Source of the DNA: Burkholderiales bacterium
GTDB taxonomy: Bacteria; Pseudomonadota; Gammaproteobacteria; Burkholderiales; Burkholderiaceae_C
Length of the DNA stretch: 45,601 nucleotides
Direction of reading: 5' to 3'
NCBI GenBank assembly: GCA_003963005.1
Contig: RXJW01000102.1
Span: 1-45,601, forward strand
The notes below the pieces were generated by a model. That model searched no databases. It was not told the origin of the DNA and was given only the letters and a program-made list of their open reading frames with translations. The translations under genes were made by a program, and so were the position numbers. Below, piece by piece: positions 5,245 to 45,601 of the stretch. Every line of letters starts with the position of its first letter. The first letter of the stretch is position 1.

Positions 5245-6576
5245 TCAGGCGCCCAGGGCGGCGAAGGCGTCTCGCGTGAGGTTCTCCGGCGGCTCGCCGC
5301 CCGCACGACAGGCCACGTCGTCTTCGATGCGGATGCCGCCGAAGCGTGACAGCCGCTCGACGGCTGCCCAGTCGACCTGGGCCGCATGCGGCGAGGCCCG
5401 CAGTTCGTCCAGCAGCATCGGGATGAAGTACAGCCCGGGCTCGATGGTCACCACCATGCCAGCCTGCAGCGGGCGCGTGAGCCGCAGGTAGCGGTGGCCT
5501 TCGGGCTTGTCGGCCACGCCGCCGTCTTCGCTGGCCATGAAGCCGCCCACGTCGTGCACTTGCAGGCCCAGCAGGTGGCCGATGCCGTGCGGGAAGAAGG
5601 GCTTGGTGACCCCTTCGGCCACCATCGCTTCCTCGCTCAGGCGCACCACGCCAGCCTCCCGCAGCACGCGGGCCACGCGGCGGTGGGTGCTGAGGTGGAT
5701 GTCGCGGTAGTCCACGCCCTCGCGCACTTCGTCGACGAGGGCCAGTTGTTCGCGCTCCATCGCCGCGATCAGCGCGGCGAAGTCGTCATGCCCCGGCGCC
5801 ACCCAGGTGCGGGTGATGTCGCTCGCATAACCCGCCACCTGGGCGCCGGCATCGATGAGGAAGCTGCGCGAGTCGGCGGGCGCCTCCTCGTCCTGGTACT
5901 GGTAGTGCAGCACCGCGGCATGCTCGTTCAGGCCGATGATGTTGGTGTAGGGCAGGTCGCGGTCGGTGTGGCCGGTGGCCCGCAGGTAGGCACGGTGGAT
6001 GCCCGCCTCGCTCTCGCCGCGCAGAAAGGCCTCGCGCGCGGCGAGGTGGCCTGGCACGGCGCGGCGTTGCGCGGCGCGCATCTGGGCCAGCTCGTAGGGC
6101 GTCTTCACGCCACGGGCCCAGTGCAGCAGGTTCAGCAGCCGCTCGGGGTTGTTGGGCACCACACCCGGCAGCGCGGCGTCGGCTTCGCCCAGGATGGCGG
6201 TGTGATTCGTGACGATGTCGGCCAGCGCCGGTGCGGCCTGCTCGGGCTCGCGGATGATGACGAGGTCCACCGCATCGACCCACTCGCCGCTGGGTGCGCT
6301 GGGTGGCACATGCCAGTAGTCGTGCGGCTGGTAGTAGACGACCCGAGGCTTGTGGCCCGGCCGCACGGCGATCCACGAGTGCGGGTGGTTCGTCAGCGGC
6401 AGCCAGTGCTTGAAGTGCGGGTTGGCTTGAAAGAGGTAGGGCCGGTCATCGAGGAAGGCGTACTTCTCGATGCCGGCGGCGATGACGAGCGCATCGTGGC
6501 CGGTGCGCGCCAGCGCGGTGTCAGCCTGGCGCTGCAGCGTGGCGAGGTGGTCCAGGTACAGGGACGGTGCGCTCAT
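5245..6576 (-). CDS. pepQ: Xaa-Pro dipeptidase (M24B metallopeptidase)
   Basis: Cytosolic dipeptidase cleaving Xaa-Pro dipeptides, 443 aa, the same length as E. coli PepQ. The pita-bread fold dinuclear metal ligands are all present: Asp242 (LIDAG), Asp253 (SDITRTW), His334 (GIGHLLGLQVHD), Glu379 (TIEPGLY) and Glu418 (IRIEDD). The N-terminal domain has the PepQ-type DDRPYLFQANPHFKHW segment, which separates it from aminopeptidase P. It starts 10 bp after the stop of the DUF1161 gene on the same strand, so the two are probably co-transcribed. Convergent with the cupin gene. Confidence 0.95.
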   Translation of the reverse strand: MSAPSLYLDHLATLQRQADTALARTGHDALVIAAGIEKYAFLDDRPYLFQANPHFKHWLPLTNHPHSWIAVRPGHKPRVVYYQPHDYWHVPPSAPSGEWVDAVDLVIIREPEQAAPALADIVTNHTAILGEADAALPGVVPNNPERLLNLLHWARGVKTPYELAQMRAAQRRAVPGHLAAREAFLRGESEAGIHRAYLRATGHTDRDLPYTNIIGLNEHAAVLHYQYQDEEAPADSRSFLIDAGAQVAGYASDITRTWVAPGHDDFAALIAAMEREQLALVDEVREGVDYRDIHLSTHRRVARVLREAGVVRLSEEAMVAEGVTKPFFPHGIGHLLGLQVHDVGGFMASEDGGVADKPEGHRYLRLTRPLQAGMVVTIEPGLYFIPMLLDELRASPHAAQVDWAAVERLSRFGGIRIEDDVACRAGGEPPENLTRDAFAALGA

Positions 6577-6586
6577 CGGCGGGGCC

Positions 6587-6820
6587 TCACTTGCGGACGT
6601 AGGTCAGCTTCTTGGTGCCGCCGTCGCAGCTGCCGATGACCTTGGCGTCGCCGACCTTGTCGTTCTCCACCGCGGTGATCTCGTAGCCCTTCACGCCCTT
6701 GGCGTCGAGCTTGGCGGCGATCTCGGACTTGAGTTCATCGCAGGCCTTGGGGGCGGCGTGGGCGGTGGTGGTGAGGAGGGTGGCGGCGGTGGCCAGGAGG
6801 GTGAGGGTGGTCTTGGTCAT
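6587..6820 (-). CDS. DUF1161 small periplasmic protein
   Basis: Small secreted protein, 77 aa. A signal peptide (MTKTTLTLLATAATLLTTTA, cleavage after HAA) is followed by the DUF1161 pattern CDELKSEIAAKLDAKGVKGY and KVIGSCDGGTKKLTYVRK, with two cysteines likely to form a disulfide in the periplasm. The function of DUF1161 proteins is not established. It lies 10 bp upstream of pepQ on the same strand and about 55 bp from the end of a large inverted repeat. Confidence 0.82.
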   Translation of the reverse strand: MTKTTLTLLATAATLLTTTAHAAPKACDELKSEIAAKLDAKGVKGYEITAVENDKVGDAKVIGSCDGGTKKLTYVRK

Positions 6821-6943
6821 GGTCTGTGCGGTGGGTGTTGAAAGCGGTGGGATTGTGGAGCAATCGGTTGTGGCGGGTGGCTTTTGCTGGGAGCCTTAGC
6901 GCCTCGATGCACCGTGCCGGGAGTCCGCCCCGGCGGGCGGGTA

Positions 6944-6971
6944 ACTTTTCTCTGCTGCGCCAGAGAAAAGT
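6944..6971 (+). other. Left-arm hairpin of the inverted repeat
   Basis: ACTTTTCTCTG (6944-6954), loop CTGCGC (6955-6960), CAGAGAAAAGT (6961-6971): perfect 11-bp stem. Compared with the right-arm copy, two stem positions are swapped (TC to CT) and the partner bases are changed to match, which preserves pairing. Confidence 0.85.
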
Positions 6972-7378
6972 CACCAAAAGAGAGGCGCTGAACCGCACAC
7001 CAGCGGGATCGCGGCACGGCTCGCGCGCGAGAACTTCCGCCCGTGGTGTTCGCCGAAGCGACCCGCTGCGCTCTCGCTGCTGTCCCTGTCACGAGCGTCA
7101 CTGATCGGACCGTCACCCCGGTAAACGCCGGCTGCACGCCGGGCTCACCAAGAAATGCACCACACGCCACGACGCGCCGTCGACGGCGCTTGTTTTCAAC
7201 TCGTGAGTTCGGCGTGCAGCCGACGTTAGGCGCACGGACGGTGGGTGAGTTCGGGCCGTGACAAGGACAGCAGCGAGAGCGCAGCGGGTCGCTTCGGCTG
7301 AGGATCCGAGCGCACGTTTTCGCGCGCCGCCCTTCGCAGGCTCTGGTCGACTTGCGGTTCAGCGCCTCTTCTTTGGTG

Positions 7379-7406
7379 ACTTTCTTCTGGCGCAGCAGAA
7401 GAAAGT
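7379..7406 (-). other. Right-arm hairpin of the inverted repeat
   Basis: On the plus strand ACTTTCTTCTG (7379-7389), loop GCGCAG (7390-7395), CAGAAGAAAGT (7396-7406): perfect 11-bp stem. Read on the minus strand its loop is CTGCGC, identical to the left copy, while the stem differs at two pairs in a compensatory way. Confidence 0.85.
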
Positions 7407-7503
7407 TACCCCGCTGCCGGGCGGGACTCCCGGCACGGTGCATCGAGGCGCTAAGGCGCCATGCAAAAGCCACCAAAACCCAACAGCGCAGTGCCGCGCC
7501 CCA

Positions 7504-8073
7504 TCACCCCTCCCGATCCCACACCACCCCCTCCTCCGTCAACATCGCATCCAGCGCCACATCCAGCGCACTCGCCTTCAACAACGGCAGGAAGCCATGC
7601 GCGTATCCGATGCCCACCGCCGCCGGCCGCGGCTGCATCTCGGACAGCGTGCGGTCCATGAAGCCCCCGCCGTAGCCCAGCCGCAGGCCGCACGGCCCGA
7701 AGCCCAGGCAGGGCACGAGCATCAGCTGCGGCTGGAACTCCTCCGTGTCTTTCGGCTTCGGGATGTGGAAGGCGTCTTCCTCCATCGGGCAGCCGGGGTA
7801 CCAGACGTGAAAGCGCAGCGTGCGGTGCACCTTGTCGACCACCGGCAGGCCGATGCGGCGCTCGGGGTGGTCCTCGCTCCAACGGTAAAGCGCGGGCAGC
7901 GGGTCGAACTCGCCCTTGATCGGCCAGTAGGCGCCGATCGTGGTCTCCTTGCGACGCAGGAGCCACACCCGCAACACCTCCTGCAGATCGGCCGCGCGCG
8001 CGAGGCGGTCCGGCAGGTTCAGGCGTTGCTCGATCAGCTTGTGCCGCAGCGCGGCGCGGTCGTTGGCGTCCAT
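7504..8073 (-). CDS. 5-formyltetrahydrofolate cyclo-ligase family protein (copy 1)
   Basis: Predicted ATP-dependent enzyme converting 5-formyl-THF to 5,10-methenyl-THF, 189 aa. Family signatures are GAYWPIKGEFDP (residues about 47-58), LMLVPCLGFGPCGLRLGYGG and GGFMDRTL; the last differs from the usual GGGYYDR, having Phe-Met where Tyr-Tyr is common. The ATG at 8073 gives a normal N-terminus (MDANDRAALRHKLIEQRL); the frame remains open upstream but there it would run into the divergent TfoX-domain gene. A second family member is at 11497-12042; this one is the more divergent and may have a different substrate or be a supplementary copy. It lies 26 bp from the divergent gene start, so promoters must be compressed. 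Confidence 0.85.
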   Translation of the reverse strand: MDANDRAALRHKLIEQRLNLPDRLARAADLQEVLRVWLLRRKETTIGAYWPIKGEFDPLPALYRWSEDHPERRIGLPVVDKVHRTLRFHVWYPGCPMEEDAFHIPKPKDTEEFQPQLMLVPCLGFGPCGLRLGYGGGFMDRTLSEMQPRPAAVGIGYAHGFLPLLKASALDVALDAMLTEEGVVWDREG

Positions 8074-8098
8074 GACCCCGGAGCTTACAGTCGCTCGC

Positions 8099-8521
8099 AT
8101 GCCGGATGCCTTCACCGAACTCTGCATCGAGATGCTGTCGCCGCTCGGGCCGGTGCGCGTGCGGCGCATGTTCGGTGGCCAGGGGCTCTACATCGACGGC
8201 CTGTTCGTGGCGATCATCGATGACGGCCAGTTGTTCCTGAAGTCGGATGACGTGAACCGCACCCGCTTCGACGCGGCGGGCTGCGCGCATTTCACGTTTC
8301 CGAAGGACGGCGAAGACGTCATCACCAGCTACCGCCGCCCACCCGAGGAGGCGCTGGAATCGCCGCCGCTGATGCTGCCGTGGGCGCGCCTGGCGCTGGA
8401 GGCGGCGCTGCGCGCAGCCAATGCGAAGGCGGCCAAGGCCGCGGCGACCGCGGCCCGAAGGTCAGCGGCTCAGCAGCGCGCCGCCCAGAAGAAAGCGCCG
8501 GCCCGCCCGCGCCGGGCGTGA
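8099..8521 (+). CDS. TfoX N-terminal domain protein
   Basis: 140-aa protein consisting of a TfoX/Sxy N-terminal domain: ELCIEMLSPLGPVRVRRMFGGQGLYIDG, then FVAIIDDGQLFLKSDD and TFPKDGEDVITSYRR. It lacks the C-terminal helical domain of competence regulator TfoX/Sxy; instead it ends in an Ala/Lys/Arg-rich tail (from about residue 104), perhaps nucleic-acid binding. The function of stand-alone TfoX_N proteins is not established; competence should not be assumed. The ATG at 8099 is chosen because the domain begins immediately afterwards. Its last 60 bp overlap the convergent DUF2917 gene. Confidence 0.82.
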   Translation: MPDAFTELCIEMLSPLGPVRVRRMFGGQGLYIDGLFVAIIDDGQLFLKSDDVNRTRFDAAGCAHFTFPKDGEDVITSYRRPPEEALESPPLMLPWARLALEAALRAANAKAAKAAATAARRSAAQQRAAQKKAPARPRRA

Positions 8522-8776
8522 GGCCACGGCCGTGGGCGGCACCAGCAGCTCGAAGTCGGCCGCCGGCCAGCCTTCCAGCACCGCCACCTGGCCCGGCGCC
8601 AGCGCCACGGCCTGGCCGGCTTCCAGCCAGGTGTCCTCGGCCGGCTGATCGGTCGTGCCGGACAGCGTCAGCCAGACCCGGCCGCGCGCGACCGACAAGC
8701 GGCGCGCCTCGGCGCCCGCGGCCAGGGTCAGGGCCCGGCCGCCGTCCAGATGCCATGTGGATTGCGCATCGCTCAT
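8462..8776 (-). CDS. DUF2917 domain protein
   Basis: 104-aa cytosolic protein with the cupin-like DUF2917 pattern: RLSVARGRVWLTLSGTTDQ, then WLEAGQAVALAPGQVAVLEG. No function is established for the family. Divergent from a LysR regulator with 90 bp between the start codons; a small DUF2917 gene beside a LysR gene is an arrangement I recall from other Burkholderiales, which suggests that the regulator controls it. The last 60 bp overlap the 3' end of the TfoX-domain gene on the other strand. Confidence 0.8.
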   Translation of the reverse strand: MSDAQSTWHLDGGRALTLAAGAEARRLSVARGRVWLTLSGTTDQPAEDTWLEAGQAVALAPGQVAVLEGWPAADFELLVPPTAVASRPARAGRRFLLGGALLSR

Positions 8777-8794
8777 GATGTTGCTCCTGCGTTG

Positions 8795-8816
8795 ATGTCA
8801 GGGATTCTCCTGATAT
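8795..8816. promoter_or_regulatory. Candidate LysR operator between DUF2917 and LysR genes
   Basis: ATGTCAGG (8795-8802), spacer GATTCT, CCTGATAT (8809-8816): an 8-6-8 inverted repeat with one mismatch. LysR regulators usually bind a partial dyad in the divergent intergenic region, and this is the only clear dyad in the 90 bp. Inferred, not demonstrated. Confidence 0.45.
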
Positions 8817-8866
8817 CACCCAGAACGGTCCAATGAGTCCTCGGCTCGGATTGATACCATCCGCTC

Positions 8867-9814
8867 ATGAATCAACCCATCCGGCAACGGCCGCTCTCGG
8901 TCGGCCCCCTGCGCGCCTTCGAGGCCGTGGCGCGGCTGCTGTCCTTCCGCGCCGCGGCCGAGGAGCTGAGCCTGACCCAGTCGGCCATCAGCCGGCAGAT
9001 CCAGTCGCTGGAGGAGGAAATCGGCTGCACGCTCTTCCTGCGCGGCACCCGCAAGGTGGAGCTGTCGGTCGACGGGGCCGTGCTGCTGCCGACCGCAGTG
9101 GCGGTGCTGTCCAAACTCGACCAGACCGTGCGCCAGATCCGCCGCACGCGCGGGCGGCGGGTCATCAATGTCAGCACATTCGCGTCGTTCGCATCGCTGT
9201 GGCTCATCCCTCGACTGGAGGCCTTCCAGCGGGCGCACGAGGACATCGACATCCGCGTGTCGGCCTACGACCGCAAGGTCGACCTGGACGACGGCGAGAG
9301 CGACCTGGCCCTGCGCTACGACGATGCGCCCTCGGTGCCGGCGGACGCCGAGCAGCTGTTCGAGGAGCTGCTGTCGCCCTGCGTCAGCCCCTGGTACCTG
9401 AAGAAGCCGCCCGCGCCGCTGCGCCGCCCGGCCGACCTCGCCGGCCACGCGCTCGCCGAGGAGGACGACCCCCGCCCGAGCGCGGAGTACCTGAGCTGGC
9501 GCCGCTGGCTCACCACCCAGGGCGAGTCCGATCTGCAGCCGCGCCGCTGGCTGTACATGAACTTCACCTACCAGCAGGTGCAGGCCGCGCTCACCGGCCA
9601 GGGCGTGGCGCTGGCCCGGCTGCCGCTGGTGCACGAACACCTGGAGCGCGCCGAACTGGTGGAGCCCTTCGGCAAGGCCGGTCGGCTCGGCAGCCCGTTC
9701 AGCTACTGGCTGATCACCGGGCCGAATGCCGCCCGCCGACCGGAAGTGCAGCAGTTCACCGACTGGGTGCGGGCGCAGGCTGCCATCACGCGTGAGCAGC
9801 TGGCGGGGGTGTGA
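8867..9814 (+). CDS. LysR-family transcriptional regulator (GcvA-like)
   Basis: 315-aa regulator. The winged helix-turn-helix spans residues about 12-75 (LRAFEAVARLLSFRAAAEEL, then LTQSAISRQIQSLEEEIG, TLFLRGTRKVELSVDG). The effector domain starts near residue 100 with INVSTFASFASLWLIPRLEAF and contains DDGESDLALRYDD, typical of the GcvA-like subgroup. The effector cannot be deduced. Divergent from the DUF2917 gene; the stop is only 6 bp from the 3' end of the convergent YbaL-type antiporter gene. Confidence 0.92.
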   Translation: MNQPIRQRPLSVGPLRAFEAVARLLSFRAAAEELSLTQSAISRQIQSLEEEIGCTLFLRGTRKVELSVDGAVLLPTAVAVLSKLDQTVRQIRRTRGRRVINVSTFASFASLWLIPRLEAFQRAHEDIDIRVSAYDRKVDLDDGESDLALRYDDAPSVPADAEQLFEELLSPCVSPWYLKKPPAPLRRPADLAGHALAEEDDPRPSAEYLSWRRWLTTQGESDLQPRRWLYMNFTYQQVQAALTGQGVALARLPLVHEHLERAELVEPFGKAGRLGSPFSYWLITGPNAARRPEVQQFTDWVRAQAAITREQLAGV

Positions 9815-9820
9815 GCCTCC

Positions 9821-11482
9821 TCACGCCGACACCACCCTGGCCAGCGCCTCCGCGAGCGCGTGTTGTGAACGCAGCACGTGGCTCACGCCCGATTCGGCGA
9901 GCCAGTGCTCCTCCTCGTCGGTGTGCGCCAGCACCGCGCAGCGCAGTTGCGGATTGAGCTCGCGCGCCAGGGCCAGCAAGGCCGGCACGCCGCCCACATC
10001 GGCCAGGGCCACGACAAGCCAGGCCGCGTGGGCGATATGGGCCTGCACGAGGGTCATGGCCTCGGCGGCGTCGCCCAGCACGGCGGCCTGGCCGCTCGCA
10101 CGCAGCTGCTCCACGACGTCGCGGTCCCGGTCGATGACGACCACCGGCCGGTCGCCCAGCAAGGTGTGCAGCGCCGTGCCCAGCGTGCCGTGGCCCACCA
10201 GCACGATCTGCCCGGCGAGCGAGGTGCTGGGCGTGTCGGCGGGCAGCTCGGCCAGTGGGTCGTCCCGCGCTTCGAGCTGGCGCGCCCAGGCCGAGCGCGC
10301 AAGCACCCAGCGCCGCAGCGGCTCCACCCCCGAGAACAGCAGCGGGTTCAGCGCAATCGACACGATGGCGCCCGCCACCACCAGGCTGGTCGCCTCGGCC
10401 GGCACCAGGCCCAGGCTCTGGCCCAGGCCCAGCAGGATGAAGCTGAACTCGCCGATCTGCGCGAGGCTCACCGCCACGGTGAGCGCGGTGGACAGCGGGT
10501 AGCGCAACAGCAGCACGAGTGCGCCGGCAGCGATCGTCTTGCCGACCAGGATGACCGCCACGGTGGCCAGCACCGCCAGCGGCTGCTGGAGAAGGATCTT
10601 GGGGTCGAACAGCATGCCGACCGCCACGAAGAAGAGCACCGCGAAGGCATCGCGCAGCGGCAGGCTCTCGTGCGCGGCGCGCTCGCTGAAGGCCGACTCG
10701 CGCAGCACGAGGCCGGCGAAGAAAGCCCCCAGCGCCACGCTAACGCCGAAAAGCGCCGCCGCGCCCACGGCCAGGCCCACGGCCGCCGCCACGGTGGCGA
10801 GCGTGAACAGCTCGCGCGAGCCGGTGCGGTTGACCTGCCAGAGCAGCCAGGGCAGCAGCCGCCGCCCGGCGATCAGCATCACGGCCACGAACGCCGCCAC
10901 GGCCAGCAGCGTCGTGACGATGGTGACGGCGAGGTTGCCGCTGTCACCCCCTTCGCCCTTGCCGCCAAGCACCGGCATCAGCACGAGCGCCAGCACCATG
11001 GCGAGGTCTTCCACGACCAGCCAGCCGACCGCGATGCGACCGTTGCCGGTGTGCAGCAGCTCGCGAGACTCCAGCGCCCGCAGCAGCACGACCGTGCTCG
11101 CCACCGACAAGGCCAGGCCGAACACCAGCGACGCGCCCACGTCCCAGCCCCACCAGTAGTGCGCCAGGCCAGCGCCCATCGCGGTGGCTGCCCCCATCTG
11201 CACGATGGCCCCGGGCAGCGCGATGCCCTTCACCGACATCAGGTCGCTGACCGAGAAGTGCAGGCCCACGCCGAACATCAGCAGCATGACGCCCACCTCG
11301 GACAACTGCTGTGCCAGATGCACGTCGCCCACGAAGCCCGGCGTGTAGGGCCCGATCAGCACGCCGGCGAGCAGGTAGCCCACCAGCGCCGGCAGGCGCG
11401 CCCACTGCGCCAGCAGCCCCAGCACGAGGGCCAGACCGAAGGCAGCCGCCAGCGTCGAGATCAGGGTCATGCCTTCATGCAT
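9821..11482 (-). CDS. ybaL: YbaL-type CPA2 monovalent cation:proton antiporter with TrkA-N domain
   Basis: Inner-membrane antiporter, 553 aa. The N-terminal ~390 residues are a Na+/H+ exchanger fold with about 12 hydrophobic helices. Diagnostic segments are GYLLAGVLIGPYTPGFVGD, the GRIAVGWLVVEDL motif characteristic of YbaL, and SLAQIGEFSFIL. A cytoplasmic RCK/TrkA-N Rossmann domain follows (IVLVGHGTLGTALHTLL, from about residue 425), expected to bind nucleotide and gate transport. KefB/KefC are close relatives; the VED-containing motif and length favour YbaL. It starts 14 bp after the stop of the cyclo-ligase gene upstream on the same strand, so these two form an operon. Confidence 0.9.
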   Translation of the reverse strand: MHEGMTLISTLAAAFGLALVLGLLAQWARLPALVGYLLAGVLIGPYTPGFVGDVHLAQQLSEVGVMLLMFGVGLHFSVSDLMSVKGIALPGAIVQMGAATAMGAGLAHYWWGWDVGASLVFGLALSVASTVVLLRALESRELLHTGNGRIAVGWLVVEDLAMVLALVLMPVLGGKGEGGDSGNLAVTIVTTLLAVAAFVAVMLIAGRRLLPWLLWQVNRTGSRELFTLATVAAAVGLAVGAAALFGVSVALGAFFAGLVLRESAFSERAAHESLPLRDAFAVLFFVAVGMLFDPKILLQQPLAVLATVAVILVGKTIAAGALVLLLRYPLSTALTVAVSLAQIGEFSFILLGLGQSLGLVPAEATSLVVAGAIVSIALNPLLFSGVEPLRRWVLARSAWARQLEARDDPLAELPADTPSTSLAGQIVLVGHGTLGTALHTLLGDRPVVVIDRDRDVVEQLRASGQAAVLGDAAEAMTLVQAHIAHAAWLVVALADVGGVPALLALARELNPQLRCAVLAHTDEEEHWLAESGVSHVLRSQHALAEALARVVSA

Positions 11483-11496
11483 CGTGCGGGGGCCTT

Positions 11497-12042
11497 TCAG
11501 TCGGGGGCGATGAGCTCGCGCTCGGTGAGGATGAGGGTCAAGGGGCGGTCATGCGCCTCGACGGGGAAACGGGTCTCGGCGCCCGACCAGGCCAGGCCGA
11601 CGGCCGTCACGCCGGGGTGCTCGGCCAGCCAGCGGTCGAAGTAGCCGCCGCCGTAGCCGAGCCGAAAGCCCTCGCGCGTGAAGCCCACGCAAGGCACCAG
11701 CACGACGTCGGGCACGGCCACCGCGCCGTTGGCGGTCAGGATGCCGCAGTCGTCCTTCGCCGTGGGCTCGCTGCCGTCCCAGCGCCGGTACTGCATCGAC
11801 GGCGGCTCGCGACGAGCATGCGGCAATGCGCGCGGCCCGGCCCAGGCGCCCGGATCGAACTCGCCCGACAGCGGCCAATACACGCCGAGCAACTCCGGCT
11901 CGAGCTGATCCAGCAAGGGCCCCAAGGCTTGAAGCAATGCGGCCTGAGCGCCGCTGAAGGCCGGAGACGCCGCAAACTCACGCCGTGCGGCCAGCAGGCT
12001 GCGGCGCAGGGTGCTTCGGTCGGGGGCAATGGGGTCGGGCAT
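11497..12042 (-). CDS. 5-formyltetrahydrofolate cyclo-ligase (copy 2, canonical)
   Basis: 181-aa cytosolic enzyme of folate one-carbon metabolism. Family motifs are VYWPLSGEFDP, VVLVPCVGFTREGFRLGYGG and GGYFDRWL followed by VGLAWSGAE, closer to consensus than the copy at 7504-8073. It begins with a basic helix (STLRRSLLAARREF). It is first in a minus-strand pair with the YbaL-type antiporter (14-bp gap) and is divergent from the lytic transglycosylase gene, a context I recall for this gene in other Burkholderiales. Probably the housekeeping 5-FCL. Confidence 0.9.
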   Translation of the reverse strand: MPDPIAPDRSTLRRSLLAARREFAASPAFSGAQAALLQALGPLLDQLEPELLGVYWPLSGEFDPGAWAGPRALPHARREPPSMQYRRWDGSEPTAKDDCGILTANGAVAVPDVVLVPCVGFTREGFRLGYGGGYFDRWLAEHPGVTAVGLAWSGAETRFPVEAHDRPLTLILTERELIAPD

Positions 12043-12135
12043 CGGGCACGGACGTCATCCAGGAGGCCCGATTAAAACCTAGGGTGCCGCCCGGGCGCGG
12101 CATGCCCTTACGCAGCGTTCGGGCGGCATTGCCAC

Positions 12136-12159
12136 GCCGGCAGCGCCCAGGCTGCCGGC
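12136..12159. promoter_or_regulatory. Perfect GC stem-loop in the divergent cyclo-ligase/slt intergenic region
   Basis: GCCGGCAGC (12136-12144), loop GCCCAG, GCTGCCGGC (12151-12159). It lies in the 248-bp region 12043-12290 that must hold promoters for both divergent genes. Could be an operator or a leader structure of slt; no clear sigma-70 boxes were identified nearby. Confidence 0.35.
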
Positions 12160-12290
12160 ACCCGGGCATCTTGGAGCCAAGACGTGGGCCCGACCCGCCC
12201 CAAGGTCCAGGTGAACGCCCCCAGGGCCTCGCCCGGGCATGGCCTGGGGTAAATTGACCGGCCAGGCAGTACACACGGGCATCGACAGAC

Positions 12291-14318
12291 ATGAGCAGGG
12301 GCGTTCGGGAGATCTTCAGCCGCAAGCGGTGGACGGCGGCGCTGTTCGCGCTCAGCCTGGGCGGCACCAGCCCCGTCGTGATGGCGGCACCGACGCCGGA
12401 CACCGACCTGGTCGTGCAGGCCCGCGAGGCCTGGGTCAAGCGCGACCGCAAGCGCCTGGCCACGCTGGCCGACACCGCCCGAAGCCAGAGCCATCCGCTG
12501 GCCGGCTGGGTGGACTACTTCGAGCTGAATGCGCGCCTGGCCGAAGTGCGCCAGCCCGAGATGGACGCCTTCTACGCCCGATACGCCGGCAGCTACGTCG
12601 AGGACCGTCTTCGCAACGACTGGCTGCTGGAGCTCGGCCGCCGCCGCGACTGGGCCAATTTCCGGCGTGACCATGCCAGCTACCAGATGCGCGACGACCG
12701 CGAGGTCGCCTGTTACGCGCTGCTGGCCGATCACCTCGCCGGCACCAAGGTGGCACCCGAAGCCGCTCGGGCAGCCTGGTTCGCCCAGAAGGACGGCGAT
12801 GACGGTTGCAACCAACTCGCCACGGCCATGGTCGACGCCGGTGCTTTCAAGCACGACACGCTCTGGGCCCGAGCGCGCAACGCCGCCGAGCAATCGCGCC
12901 CGCGCGCTGCTCGCCAGGCGGTGGCCTTGCTCAACGACAAGGTGGTCGAACAACAGTTCGCCGCGCTGCAGGACAACGCCGGCCGCTACCTCACGCGCGT
13001 AGCCCGCAGCGCTCCGCGCCCCTTCGCCGAACTGACGGCCCTAGCCCTGGCCCGCGTGGCGGCCAACGACCCCGACCAGGCCGGCTCCCTGCTGCGCGAG
13101 AAGTGGAGCCGGCTGCCAGACGACCTGCAGGCCTGGGTCTGGGTGCAGGTCGGCCGCCAACAAGCCTTGCGCCTGCAAGACGGTGCCGTCGCGGCCTACG
13201 AACGCGCTGAGAAGCTGGCCCCTGACCTCACCTGGACGGACGAAGCCCTCGCTTGGGCCGCGCGCGCCGCGCTGCGGGCGAAGTCACCGACCCTGGCGCT
13301 GCGATCCATTGAACGCATGTCGCCGAACGAGCAGCGCGATCCGGCCTGGGTTTACTGGAAGGCCCGTGCCACGCGCCTGCAAGGCGATCAGGCTGCCGCC
13401 CGCGCCCAGCTCACCGCCCTGGCGACAGGGTCGCCGGGTGCCACGCTGAACTTTTTCGGCCGCCTCGCCGCCGAAGAAATCGCGCTGCCCACGCCGCTGC
13501 CGCCCGCTCCGGCCCCCCTCACCGCCGACGAGCGCCGCGCTGCGCGCAGCCACGCCGGCCTCGCCCGTGCGCTGCAGCTCATCGACCTGGGCCTGCGCAA
13601 CGAAGGCGTGCGCGAATGGAACTTCTCGCTGCGCGGCATGAACGACCGCGCGCTGCTGGCCGCCGCCCAGGAGGCCTGCGACCGCGAGGTGTGGGACCGC
13701 TGCATCAATACCAGCGAGCGCACCAAGGCCGAGATCGACATCGCCCAGCGCTACCCGCTGCCCCACCGCGCCGAGCTGCAGCGCGAGGCGCAGGCGGCCG
13801 GCGTGGATGCCGCCTACGTCTACGGCCTCATCCGCCAGGAGTCCCGCTTCGTGCTGGATGCGCGCTCGCACGTCGGCGCGGCCGGTCTGATGCAGGTCAT
13901 GCCCGCCACGGCCCGCTGGACGGCGCGCAAGGTCGGCCTGGACTACTCGGCCGAACGCATGCACGACCGCGACTTCAACCTGCGCATCGGCACGCAATAC
14001 CTGAAGCTCGTGCTCGACCGCTTCGACGGCGCGCAGGCGCTGGCTGCTGCGGCCTACAACGCCGGCCCGGGGCGCCCTGCCCGCTGGCGGGACGGCCCCG
14101 TGCTGGATGCCGCGATCTGGGCGGAGAACATTCCGTTCAACGAGACCCGTGACTACGTCCGCAAGGTGCTGATCGGTGGCGCGGTCTACGCCCAGGTGAT
14201 GGGCCTGCCGGCCACGTCGCTGCGCGAGCGGCTGGGCACCAGTGTGGGCCCCGCGGGTGCGCGCGGCGGTGATGTCAGCGATGTGCCGCCGGCAGCGGCG
14301 GGAGAGGCCAAGTCATGA
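12291..14318 (+). CDS. slt: Soluble lytic murein transglycosylase (Slt70-like)
   Basis: Periplasmic enzyme, 675 aa, cleaving peptidoglycan glycan strands to 1,6-anhydro-muropeptides. N-terminal export signal with a basic start (RKR) and hydrophobic core AALFALSLGGTSPVVMAA. About 450 residues of alpha-solenoid repeats, rich in Ala/Arg, form the superhelical U-domain. The C-terminal family-23 lysozyme-like domain has the catalytic Glu517 in IRQESRF, then GAAGLMQVMPATA and AAAYNAGPGR. The stop overlaps the ATG of the following gene by 4 bp, so they form an operon. Length matches the Slt70 family. Divergent from the cyclo-ligase gene. Confidence 0.93.
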   Translation: MSRGVREIFSRKRWTAALFALSLGGTSPVVMAAPTPDTDLVVQAREAWVKRDRKRLATLADTARSQSHPLAGWVDYFELNARLAEVRQPEMDAFYARYAGSYVEDRLRNDWLLELGRRRDWANFRRDHASYQMRDDREVACYALLADHLAGTKVAPEAARAAWFAQKDGDDGCNQLATAMVDAGAFKHDTLWARARNAAEQSRPRAARQAVALLNDKVVEQQFAALQDNAGRYLTRVARSAPRPFAELTALALARVAANDPDQAGSLLREKWSRLPDDLQAWVWVQVGRQQALRLQDGAVAAYERAEKLAPDLTWTDEALAWAARAALRAKSPTLALRSIERMSPNEQRDPAWVYWKARATRLQGDQAAARAQLTALATGSPGATLNFFGRLAAEEIALPTPLPPAPAPLTADERRAARSHAGLARALQLIDLGLRNEGVREWNFSLRGMNDRALLAAAQEACDREVWDRCINTSERTKAEIDIAQRYPLPHRAELQREAQAAGVDAAYVYGLIRQESRFVLDARSHVGAAGLMQVMPATARWTARKVGLDYSAERMHDRDFNLRIGTQYLKLVLDRFDGAQALAAAAYNAGPGRPARWRDGPVLDAAIWAENIPFNETRDYVRKVLIGGAVYAQVMGLPATSLRERLGTSVGPAGARGGDVSDVPPAAAGEAKS

Positions 14319-43806: not shown

Positions 43807-44043
43807 ATGAGCCTTGCCACCGTCCACTCCCGGGCCCTCGACGGCCTGGCCGCTGCCCCGGTCACCGTCGAAGTCCACCTGGCCAACGGTCTGCCGTCGT
43901 TCACGGTCGTGGGCCTGGCGGACACCGAGGTCAAGGAAGCCCGCGAACGGGTTCGGGCCGCGCTGCACAACAGCGGGCTGTCCTTTCCTGCCAACAAGCG
44001 CATCACGGTGAACCTCGCGCCGGCCGACCTGCCGAAGGAGTGA
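43807..44043 (+). pseudogene. comM: comM (YifB Mg-chelatase-like helicase) 5' fragment, interrupted at codon 78
   Basis: Encodes only the first 78 residues of ComM, a hexameric helicase that promotes branch migration during natural transformation. Residues 1-78 ([12 protein letters not shown]..., [52 protein letters not shown]) match the ComM N-terminal domain and stop at PKE where every intact homologue continues GGR(F/Y)DLPIA. The host sequence ends at 44040 and foreign DNA begins at 44041 with TGA, which closes the frame at 44043. The ATPase core is absent, so the product cannot function. comM is a known integration target (AbaR/Tn6022 elements in Acinetobacter). The rest of comM should lie beyond the element, outside the window. 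Confidence 0.9.
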
Positions 44044-44199
44044 CAACAGGTTCGCTATTTGCGAAGTTGTCAGTTAAACGCTAGATGGGAACAATATTTG
44101 CGAGGAAACGATCCAATAATTGTTGGTAATTCTCGATAATCGCGCGCCGCCGGACAGGTCAACGAGCGTTCAGTTGCGACCTTCAGGTCAAGTTGCGAC
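44041..44199 (+). repeat. Transposon-end hairpin and four TTGCGA motifs (putative transposase-binding sites)
   Basis: Terminal hairpin: TGACAAC (44041-44047), 3-nt bulge, TTCGC (44051-44055), loop TATTT, GCGAA (44061-44065), GTTGTCA (44066-44072). Direct repeats: TATTTGCGA at 44056-44064 and 44095-44103 (39 bp apart) and AGTTGCGAC at 44172-44180 and 44191-44199 (19 bp apart). All four share TTGCGA in the same orientation within 160 bp of the junction, as in the spaced TnsB sites of a Tn7 left end. Confidence 0.6.
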
Positions 44200-44424
44200 T
44201 TAGACCTGTGGAGGCTCACCGATCCCATCGGCTCGATGGCGTGCTTCTTTTGACGATGCCGTTGGGCCAAGCCGGCTGTCAGCGTCGGCGTTAGGGGTCA
44301 GGTCTTGTCGCGCGATGATCCGCCGCCTTGCCATTCCTCCGGCTCGTTGCGTCACCGCCACTTCTGAGCGAGTCAGCATGCGGCCCGGGCGCATCCGTGA
44401 TTTTGTTGGCCGGATCGTCGAATC

Positions 44425-45600
44425 GTGCGTGAGAGAGTTGGCACGCACTGGAGCGCCTGCTGTCGGCGCATGCATTACCGGACCTTGGCAAGAACGCACC
44501 GACTCCCGCTTCATCTTCCTTCCGGCCGCTGGCTGGTCCTGTGGTTTGGCAAGCTCGCGGAAATGGCCGAAGCGGCGTCTGTACTGGGCATCCATACCTA
44601 CTTCCTGCTGACGGACGTGCCTCGAGCGGAGCAGCGCGTAGAACGGCGTCTGGTTTCGCTGGCGCACATGCACCTGCTTCACCTCGGGGCACACATGGAT
44701 GGAGACAGCGGGTTGATCAGGCCGGCCACTGCATCAGACAAGCTGGTGCGGCAAACCGTGACCCTCGATCTCAGTCCAGGGAACACGTCGAGGATCGACC
44801 GGGCGGCCCTGAACCTCTCTCGGTTCACTGCGACGCTGGCGCAGACGCCCGAGTACAACTCGCAGCTCATCCGGGTCAAGGCGACGGCCGGCATGCCTGA
44901 GGTTCTGATCCCGTCCGCGACCCTGTTCCTGTTTTTCTGGGGCATCTCCACGACGCTGATCAACGCTGTCACCTCGGATCACCTGCACAACCCCGAGATG
45001 CACCTCTACAACCCGGCAAACAGCGACCTGCACGCAGATCCCGTCCGGATCGAGGTGCGGCGCCAGTGGACCGATGACGAGGCCCTTTATCTGGCGGCGC
45101 TGCTCAAAGAGCCCGACGCCATCGACATCGGACAGCAGATCTTCAAGGCCATCACCGCGTCCCGGATGCACCAGCCCCGGGCGCCGATCCCTTTTGACGT
45201 CTGGCCGCCTTTCGCCAGACCTTTGCAGGTGAGCGGGCTTTTCCGGCAGGTCGGCGACTACCTGTTGTTGACTCACATCCTCTCGGTCGACCTCGCACAG
45301 GACTGGAGCGCCCTGGAAATCTACCGTGAGGGTGGACGCCGCATCAGGACGGTCACGCAGTACGACGACACGGACGAGCCGCCGCCGGAACCGCCGCCCC
45401 CGAACGGCGGCAGCGGCATCGCTCCGACCGGCGATGTCGAGGTAAAAGAAACACCCGGGGGGTGGAGCCCCGGGGCCGCGGAGATTCCGGCCGTCGCGGC
45501 GCTCAAGGCATGTTGGCGCCGACCGAACTTTGACCACCCGCGCCGATTGAATCTTGACCAGGGGGCGGAGGCCGTCGCGATGACGGCCATTTGTGGATAA
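44425..45600 (+). CDS. Unrecognised element-borne protein, possibly TnsE-like N-terminal half, 3' end disrupted
   Basis: Open frame of 391 codons from GTG 44425; ATG 44470 is a likelier start, though neither has a clear ribosome-binding site. A neighbouring frame (44383-44535) also looks coding and a frameshift near 44535 is possible. Visible features: GRWLVLWFGKLAEMAEA, a hydrophobic VLIPSATLFLFFWGISTTL, WTDDEALYLAALLKEPDAID, then PFDVWPPFARPLQVSGLF and DYLLLTHILSVDL, followed by an acidic/proline-rich linker (YDDTDEPPPEPPPPNGG). Compared from memory, this order resembles the N-terminal half of Tn7 TnsE (EWRIFVWFNP, IP...ARSLFLINSYF, FDPPP...W.LHVKG, YLVEEIVGLEI). The host-independent part ends at about 45510, where an IS21-like end begins; the stop at 45598 lies in that IS. 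Function assignment is tentative. Confidence 0.4.
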   Translation: MRERVGTHWSACCRRMHYRTLARTHRLPLHLPSGRWLVLWFGKLAEMAEAASVLGIHTYFLLTDVPRAEQRVERRLVSLAHMHLLHLGAHMDGDSGLIRPATASDKLVRQTVTLDLSPGNTSRIDRAALNLSRFTATLAQTPEYNSQLIRVKATAGMPEVLIPSATLFLFFWGISTTLINAVTSDHLHNPEMHLYNPANSDLHADPVRIEVRRQWTDDEALYLAALLKEPDAIDIGQQIFKAITASRMHQPRAPIPFDVWPPFARPLQVSGLFRQVGDYLLLTHILSVDLAQDWSALEIYREGGRRIRTVTQYDDTDEPPPEPPPPNGGSGIAPTGDVEVKETPGGWSPGAAEIPAVAALKACWRRPNFDHPRRLNLDQGAEAVAMTAICG

Positions 45601-45601
45601 G
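45511..45601. mobile_element. Putative IS21-family insertion sequence end
   Basis: From TGTTGGCGCC at 45511 the sequence carries two direct repeats of the form GAAYYTTGACCA (45525-45536 and 45549-45560, 24 bp apart), like the multiple TTGACC-containing terminal repeats of IS21-family elements, followed by a hairpin GGCCGTC-GCGAT-GACGGCC (45570-45588). It interrupts the unknown coding frame, whose codons change character at this point. The istAB genes would lie beyond the window, so this remains a hypothesis. Confidence 0.35.

Follow-up and report, generated by a model that had tools for sequence, protein, structure and literature searches.

Junctions of a Tn7-like transposon with comM

The DNA analysed here (the window) is contig RXJW01000102.1 of a Burkholderiales bacterium (assembly GCA_003963005.1), 45,601 bases long and corresponding to the entire contig C77 of our numbering. 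The contig ends inside a Tn7-like transposon that interrupts comM, a gene whose product helps to recombine transforming DNA. The genome (G000) is a 6.24-Mb draft in 236 contigs, with a completeness of 99.5% and a contamination of 5.76%. Table 1 collects features of the left junction, which is in the window, and of the right junction, which is on contig C190 of G000.

Table 1. Features at the two junctions of the transposon with comM (window positions unless C190 is given)
Feature	Location	Strand	Basis or remark
comM 5΄ fragment, codons 1–78, ending ...ADLPKE	43807..44040	+	Sequence; PF13541 match in own genome; 3΄ fragment known
5-bp target-site duplication AGGAG	44036..44040	+	Repeated at right junction on C190
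Tn7-like element, left end and left part	44041..45510	+	1470/1470 bases identical to Roseateles puraquae element
Terminal inverted repeat/hairpin, left end (TGACAAC...GTTGTCA)	44041..44073	+	Folding calculation
End repeat 1, probable TnsB site, TATTTGCGAAGTTRTCAG	44054..44075	+	Register matches right end; putative TnsB role
End repeat 2, probable TnsB site, AATATTYGCGAGG	44092..44106	+	Shared with right end; putative TnsB role
TnsE-like gene, N-terminal part, 362 codons	44425..45510	+	Points inward from left end; weak family link
Repeated sequence, probable insertion-sequence end	45511..45601	.	Cuts TnsE-like gene and closes contig
comM 3΄ fragment	G000:C190:5922-7202		ChlI-domain search of genome
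tnsA	C190 5883-5005	One strand with tnsB, tnsC, tniQ	First gene inward from right end
tnsB	C190 5045-3075	Strand of tnsA	Inward of tnsA
tnsC	C190 3053-2073	Strand of tnsA	Inward of tnsB
tniQ	C190 2068 onward	Strand of tnsA	Inward of tnsC

From its ATG at 43807, comM reads normally for 78 codons and then runs at 44041 into the left end of the transposon (TGACA...), the sequence entered being TGACAACAGGTTCGC... Because the transposon opens with TGA, a stop codon, ComM is truncated to 78 residues. The original prediction, made from the letters of this DNA, that comM proceeds as far as APADLPKE and then meets an AT-rich hairpin starting with TG, was thus borne out. Folded as single-stranded DNA, the hairpin has an energy of –9.9 kcal/mol, compared with –2.3 kcal/mol (sd 1.4) for shuffled sequences (z = –5.55; 0 of 200 shuffles equalled it), and the G+C content of positions 44041–44140 is 38%, against 70% for the window, with an equally low value in 1 of 2276 sliding 100-base windows. 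The 91 bases that close the contig recur with 100% identity beside the ends of two other contigs, and the R. puraquae copy of the element described below runs on without them.

The remainder of comM (GGRFDLP...), which should lie beyond the element if the prediction was right, is present on C190. With a slash marking the element boundary, the left junction reads ...CCGA AGGAG/TGACAACAGG and the right junction ...CCTCCTGTCA/AGGAG GGCGGCCGC; the predicted 5-bp duplication of the bases before 44041 is therefore repeated exactly before the 3΄ part of comM, and the termini are inverted (TGACA/TGTCA). The transposition genes that had also been anticipated, tnsA, tnsB, tnsC and tniQ, adjoin this second junction. 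Together, the second junction, the duplication and the tns genes bear out a Tn7-like element in comM, and the second junction with its duplication rules out a plain frameshift or decay of the gene. An intact comM was not found in this genome by a ChlI-domain search, which gave four matches: two, at E = 2.2e-20 and 3.9e-15, are the halves of comM, and the other two, much weaker (E = 4e-7 and 2.2e-5), fall in other frames.

Tn7-like ends carry inverted, repeated TnsB sites and termini of the form TGT...ACA. Here the repeats TATTTGCGAAGTTRTCAG and then AATATTYGCGAGG are common to both ends, in register, and the termini are TGACA...TGTCA; those of relatives are TGT..., TCTGA... or others. Using Pfam, we identified a TnsA endonuclease (PF08722, 1.5e-11, above the cut-off; PF08721, 3.5e-4, 21.4 bits, under the cut-off of 23.4), a Tn7-type DDE transposase TnsB (Mu-transpos_C above the cut-off; rve at 29.2 bits against a cut-off of 32.6, or 32.8 bits when taken with neighbours), a TnsC/TniB AAA regulator (TniB, 4.2e-44) and TniQ (7e-25). 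The relatives of TnsB in the PDB are the TnsB proteins of Tn6677, V-K and Tn7 (best 3.2e-44), and all five Foldseek matches of TniQ at E <= 0.001 are TniQ chains; an NCBIfam scan of the tns proteins added little. An IS21-type element (IstB) with an 8-bp duplication lies inside tniQ after residue 405 of 421, so that no more than the final 16 residues are replaced. Contigs C190, C227, C223 and C77 were ordered on the model of R. puraquae, not from reads. Further TniQ genes occur on contigs C22 (two in tandem; this contig also has a stretch resembling TnsB), C51 (together with an rve transposase) and C90, and are probably remnants of other Tn7/Tn5053-like elements.

The same transposon in Roseateles puraquae

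A scan of named genomes with a TnsB alignment identified a 100% identical TnsB in R. puraquae CCUG 52769, in which the complete element, 27,760 bp, lies in comM on one contig and is flanked by the duplication AAGGT. In comM coordinates this duplication occupies nt 233–237, compared with nt 230–234 in the window's genome, in other words 3 bp further on, and the two insertions are therefore independent. Comparison of the two copies showed no difference in 1470 bases from the left end and 5062 from the right end, nor in 8733 bases on C227 and 7918 on C223; this amounts to identity over 23,183 of 27,760 bases (~23 kb). The chromosomes beside comM are ~11% diverged (88.5% identity over 4219 bases upstream and 89.1% over 1188 bases downstream). 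By these sequence comparisons, one and the same transposon has inserted independently in comM of two species. When 5.1 kb of the element was used as a query against 399 genomes of the family, 73 gave some match; the match was full length in the window's genome and one other only, and the remaining matches were short. This other genome agrees with the R. puraquae hit in contig number and coordinates, and its listed genus is that of the window's genome. The host of the window is therefore most likely a Roseateles, and the element moved recently.

In R. puraquae, the element carries genes for NicO, Nramp, OprB, MgtC and cation-efflux proteins and for a methyltransferase, as well as for an ORC-CDC6-like ATPase together with a DEAD helicase of a type considered a candidate for defence. 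Among 10 open reading frames (ORFs) submitted to PADLOC, only two gave matches, the methyltransferase and a PDC-S28-type helicase. A second interruption of comM in R. puraquae, near codon 35, is a ~13.6-kb island (L227, G399:C42 117959-131527); its first frame resembles, by eye, a serine recombinase, and it also encodes a C5 methylase and a DUF4420 nuclease.

Recurrence at codon 78

We examined the best 80 of 368 loci from a TnsB-alignment scan, together with further loci, and found 10 insertions at the codon-78 site, including those of the window's genome and R. puraquae. Both junctions could be read in six of the others, with the duplications CAAGG (genome G028, a Hydrogenophaga bin and Methylovorus menthalis), CAAAG (Variovorax sp. 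PCZ-1), CCAAG (Pseudomonas fluvialis) and AAGGA or one base earlier, the register being ambiguous (a Deltaproteobacteria bin). In P. alcaligenes and a bin named Bacillota (a 5-kb contig), the right junction only was read. Thus, 5-bp duplications are present in 8/8 insertions with both junctions readable, all within comM nt 227–237, and the tnsA end faces the 3΄ part of comM in 10/10. Among the elements examined, several besides those of the window's genome and R. puraquae have comM picking up again at residue 75–77 next to tnsA. The site encodes a conserved K-x-[GS]-G-R-[FY]-D-L, with G-A-A-Y instead in one bin; conservation of third codon bases around the site showed nothing unusual (0.65 for 7 codons versus 0.64 for 25 codons). 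No account of the codon-78 site was found in the open literature, supplementary tables and subscription papers lying outside the search.

Two candidates for other sites were rejected. An apparent insertion at codon 38 in P. alcaligenes was a spurious alignment extension, the junction itself being at the codon-78 site, and an apparent split at codon ~70 in G184 was taken as a contig break, since the two pieces of comM overlap and both stop where a contig ends.

In G028, comM has a further interruption at about codon 220, close to Walker A, where ~7 kb of other DNA (L122 ~5925-12952) is bounded on both sides by the short direct repeat GTTGATGGT. In Methylovorus (L174 12779-14498), tniQ is reduced to a fragment of 93 amino acids beside a Mutator-type transposase, and in Variovorax (L143 12800-14700) TniQ was not found beside tnsC; tniQ may therefore often be lost after insertion.

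Relation to Tn6022/AbaR and the Walker B site

The original prediction had set the element beside the Tn6022/AbaR branch, of which comM is the established attachment gene, and proposed that it would bring directed insertion in comM to a new host. The element belongs to neither the site nor the branch of Tn6022/AbaR, and comM is no new target in this order as such. A comM match is present in 347 of 399 genomes of the order, and in at least 16 of the 399 both halves of the gene are present and split near codon 284, so that comM is already a target there; two genomes (G000 and G028) are split at codon 78. These positions come from 47 of the 399 genomes (46 others and the window's own), picked by eye on match number and score among the matches listed, so that some splits may have been overlooked. 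According to excerpts of a published study (PMC10293859), Tn6022 recognizes comM at its Walker B region by means of TnsF, and the splits near codon 284 fit this region, with an LFLDE motif ~15–20 codons downstream (by eye).

In a TnsB tree of 97 proteins, built by a quick method without bootstrap, 9/9 codon-78 rows fell in one clade of 12 with a support of 100 (Shimodaira–Hasegawa-like approximate likelihood-ratio test, SH-aLRT); the remaining three members are an element of plasmid pPUV-6, one from Azonexus and one from Deefgea. The tree omits 11 of 108 loci: nine duplicates, fragments or stretches without tns genes, and two without a matching frame. Four changes of the site label are needed on it. 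At least L070 and L073, both split near codon 284, escaped the automatic Walker B label; the codon-78 label was assigned by hand, also for P. alcaligenes, and was confirmed by reading junctions. In a TniQ tree, the codon-78 proteins divided into two groups, both supported: R. puraquae with Hydrogenophaga, and all the remaining ones together with three further TniQs.

For TnsF, we built a candidate profile from a 517-residue protein beside tniQ in G058 with a weak double-zinc-ribbon match; no named TnsF went into it, the ORFs being chosen by the published description (zinc fingers, ~500 amino acids, a short TniQ alongside). The profile matched 10 loci (seven labelled Walker B, two labelled other and one Acinetobacter plasmid) and none of the ORFs of the R. 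puraquae element or of those available for the codon-78 clade. The separate TnsB clade and the lack of a match to this profile led us to reject membership in the Tn6022 branch, and codon 78 is not the Walker B site.

Several observations concern the Walker B elements themselves. Just 7 of the 36 rows so labelled have a TnsF by the profile. Nine elements (L069, L071, L072, L079, L149, L178, L190, L208 and L216) have a long TniQ (509–547 amino acids) and no TnsF match; TniQ alone may therefore reach the Walker B site too, unless TnsF is too diverged for the profile. A 973-residue frame in a Sedimenticola bin (L214 12703-15624) matches both the TniQ and the TnsF-candidate profiles, an apparent TniQ-TnsF fusion. 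At L169, L173, L193, L198 and L204, split near codon 284, comM residues 1 to ~286–295 lie beside tnsA, that is, in reversed orientation.

The possible TnsE-like gene of the original prediction does look distantly TnsE-like, with a weak family link. It is whole in R. puraquae (634 amino acids), at the left end and on the strand opposite to the tns genes; PDB searches with the protein, its relative and their alignments gave nothing useful. The TnsE-like protein is probably the route of the element to plasmids.

Choice of the site

We consider it likely that these elements form a Tn7-like lineage (TnsA, TnsB, TnsC, TniQ and a TnsE-like protein) with a chromosomal site of its own, codons 76–79 of comM, chosen by TniQ and distinct from the Walker B site. 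The junctions, duplications, operon, ten-insertion recurrence, insertion in two species and lack of a detectable TnsF are read from sequence; the choice of site by TniQ is what we infer. In this scheme, a winged helix predicted at the C-terminus of TniQ would recognize comM DNA lying to the right-end (3΄) side of the insertion, and TniQ would recruit TnsC and TnsAB, the latter cutting and pasting the element, while the TnsE-like protein would provide a second route, into conjugative plasmids. We lean slightly towards the further proposal that comM targeting arose in this lineage separately from TnsF and from CRISPR guides, with TniQ alone reading the PKxGGRFDLP coding motif near the start of comM.

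It seems rather unlikely that a second selector of the element, protein or RNA, picks the codon-78 site in the manner of TnsF or a CRISPR RNA (crRNA). In its favour, TniQ has only 421 amino acids in R. puraquae, and partners of TniQ can select comM in Tn6022 and in a type I-B1 CRISPR-associated transposon (CAST), according to parts of the published accounts (PMC10293859, PMC11406308). However, apart from frames overlapping tns genes, the clade has only TnsA, TnsB, TnsC, TniQ and the TnsE-like protein in common (blastp at 1e-5, 14 stretches, mostly partial elements), the candidate profile detected no TnsF in the R. puraquae element or the clade, and the R. puraquae element contains no comM match of more than 15 exact bases.

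Two further explanations are very improbable. That the element is an ordinary Tn6022/AbaR member which landed off-target in comM would account for the shared gene, the shared Tns core and the placing of a TnsE-like gene, which lies on the opposite strand here and in Tn6022 alike, but ten insertions at one place already contradict it, and the separate TnsB clade and the absence of a TnsF match also speak against it. A joining of comM halves and tns genes from different organisms by assembly or binning might be suspected in a contaminated draft of 236 contigs (5.76%) with both contig ends in repeated or insertion-sequence DNA; yet both flanks are equally close to R. puraquae (88.5–89.1%), each junction is internal to a contig, and the same ends occur within one contig of an independent genome. 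Least credible of all is inheritance of a single old comM insertion with the host gene, which would fit the grouping of codon-78 elements in one TnsB clade but not the duplications varying in position (nt 227 to 237) and sequence, the identical element placed 3 bp apart in two species with flanks ~11% diverged (which already contradicts it), or the 11 other same-family genomes, 10 of which, among the matches listed, have a single near full-length comM match (G294 with one counted internal TGA).

Comparison with known systems and consequences for the host

Tn7 uses one chromosomal site and a plasmid route, and inserts downstream of glmS without damage. The window's element resembles it in the TnsA-containing core, in the fixed orientation, with the tnsA end pointing toward the presumed recognized sequence, and probably also in this pair of routes; unlike Tn7, it sits inside its target gene and breaks it, and its TniQ is shorter than the TnsD of Tn7 (508 amino acids). 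With Tn6022/AbaR of Acinetobacter it shares TnsA, TnsB, TnsC and TniQ, insertion in comM with a target-site duplication, and, in its TnsE-like gene, a possible counterpart of the TnsE on the opposite strand, as far as excerpts of the description go (PMC10293859); in contrast, Tn6022 combines TnsF with the Walker B site (~codon 284), whereas the window's clade occupies codons 76–79, has no detectable TnsF and belongs to another TnsB clade. A type I-B1 CAST with a comM-matching crRNA has independently taken comM as its attachment gene, according to part of the report on it (PMC11406308), whereas no guide-like comM match (>15 exact bases) was found in the R. puraquae element. No Cas families were found in the 10 larger ORFs of that element scanned with Pfam, smaller ORFs lying outside the scan. 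The Tsy transposons of Zoogloea are likewise inserted in comM in Betaproteobacteria but, in the same excerpts, rely on tyrosine recombinases and reach the Walker B region with a homologue of TnsF (PMC10293859). In summary, comM is a known target of Tn7-like elements, through TnsF in Tn6022 and crRNA in the I-B1 CAST, and what we add is a lineage that uses a comM site of its own and in which no TnsF was detected.

With ComM cut to 78 residues, recombination of transforming DNA in the host should drop. In Acinetobacter, AbaR in comM lowers transformation, and removal of AbaR raised it ~300- to 1,000-fold, according to passages of one study (PMC7508600); parts of another propose that loss of ComM may hamper the removal of mobile elements (PMC11472951). 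In the original prediction, the insertion would likewise block removal of the element itself by transformation. A ComEC match is present in the window's genome, and the same model matches 10 of 14 control genomes, so it says little about competence.

If comM targeting did arise independently in this lineage, one competence gene has been struck at separate places by targeting modules that are unrelated, suggesting that mobile elements favour the breakage of comM. With a second comM site that evolved separately, the reason why mobile elements choose this gene would become open to test, since two solutions to targeting it could be set side by side. A compact TnsABC-TniQ system directed to one conserved coding motif, with no guide RNA or TnsF, would in that case offer a helpful model for the reading of DNA by TniQ/TnsD proteins.
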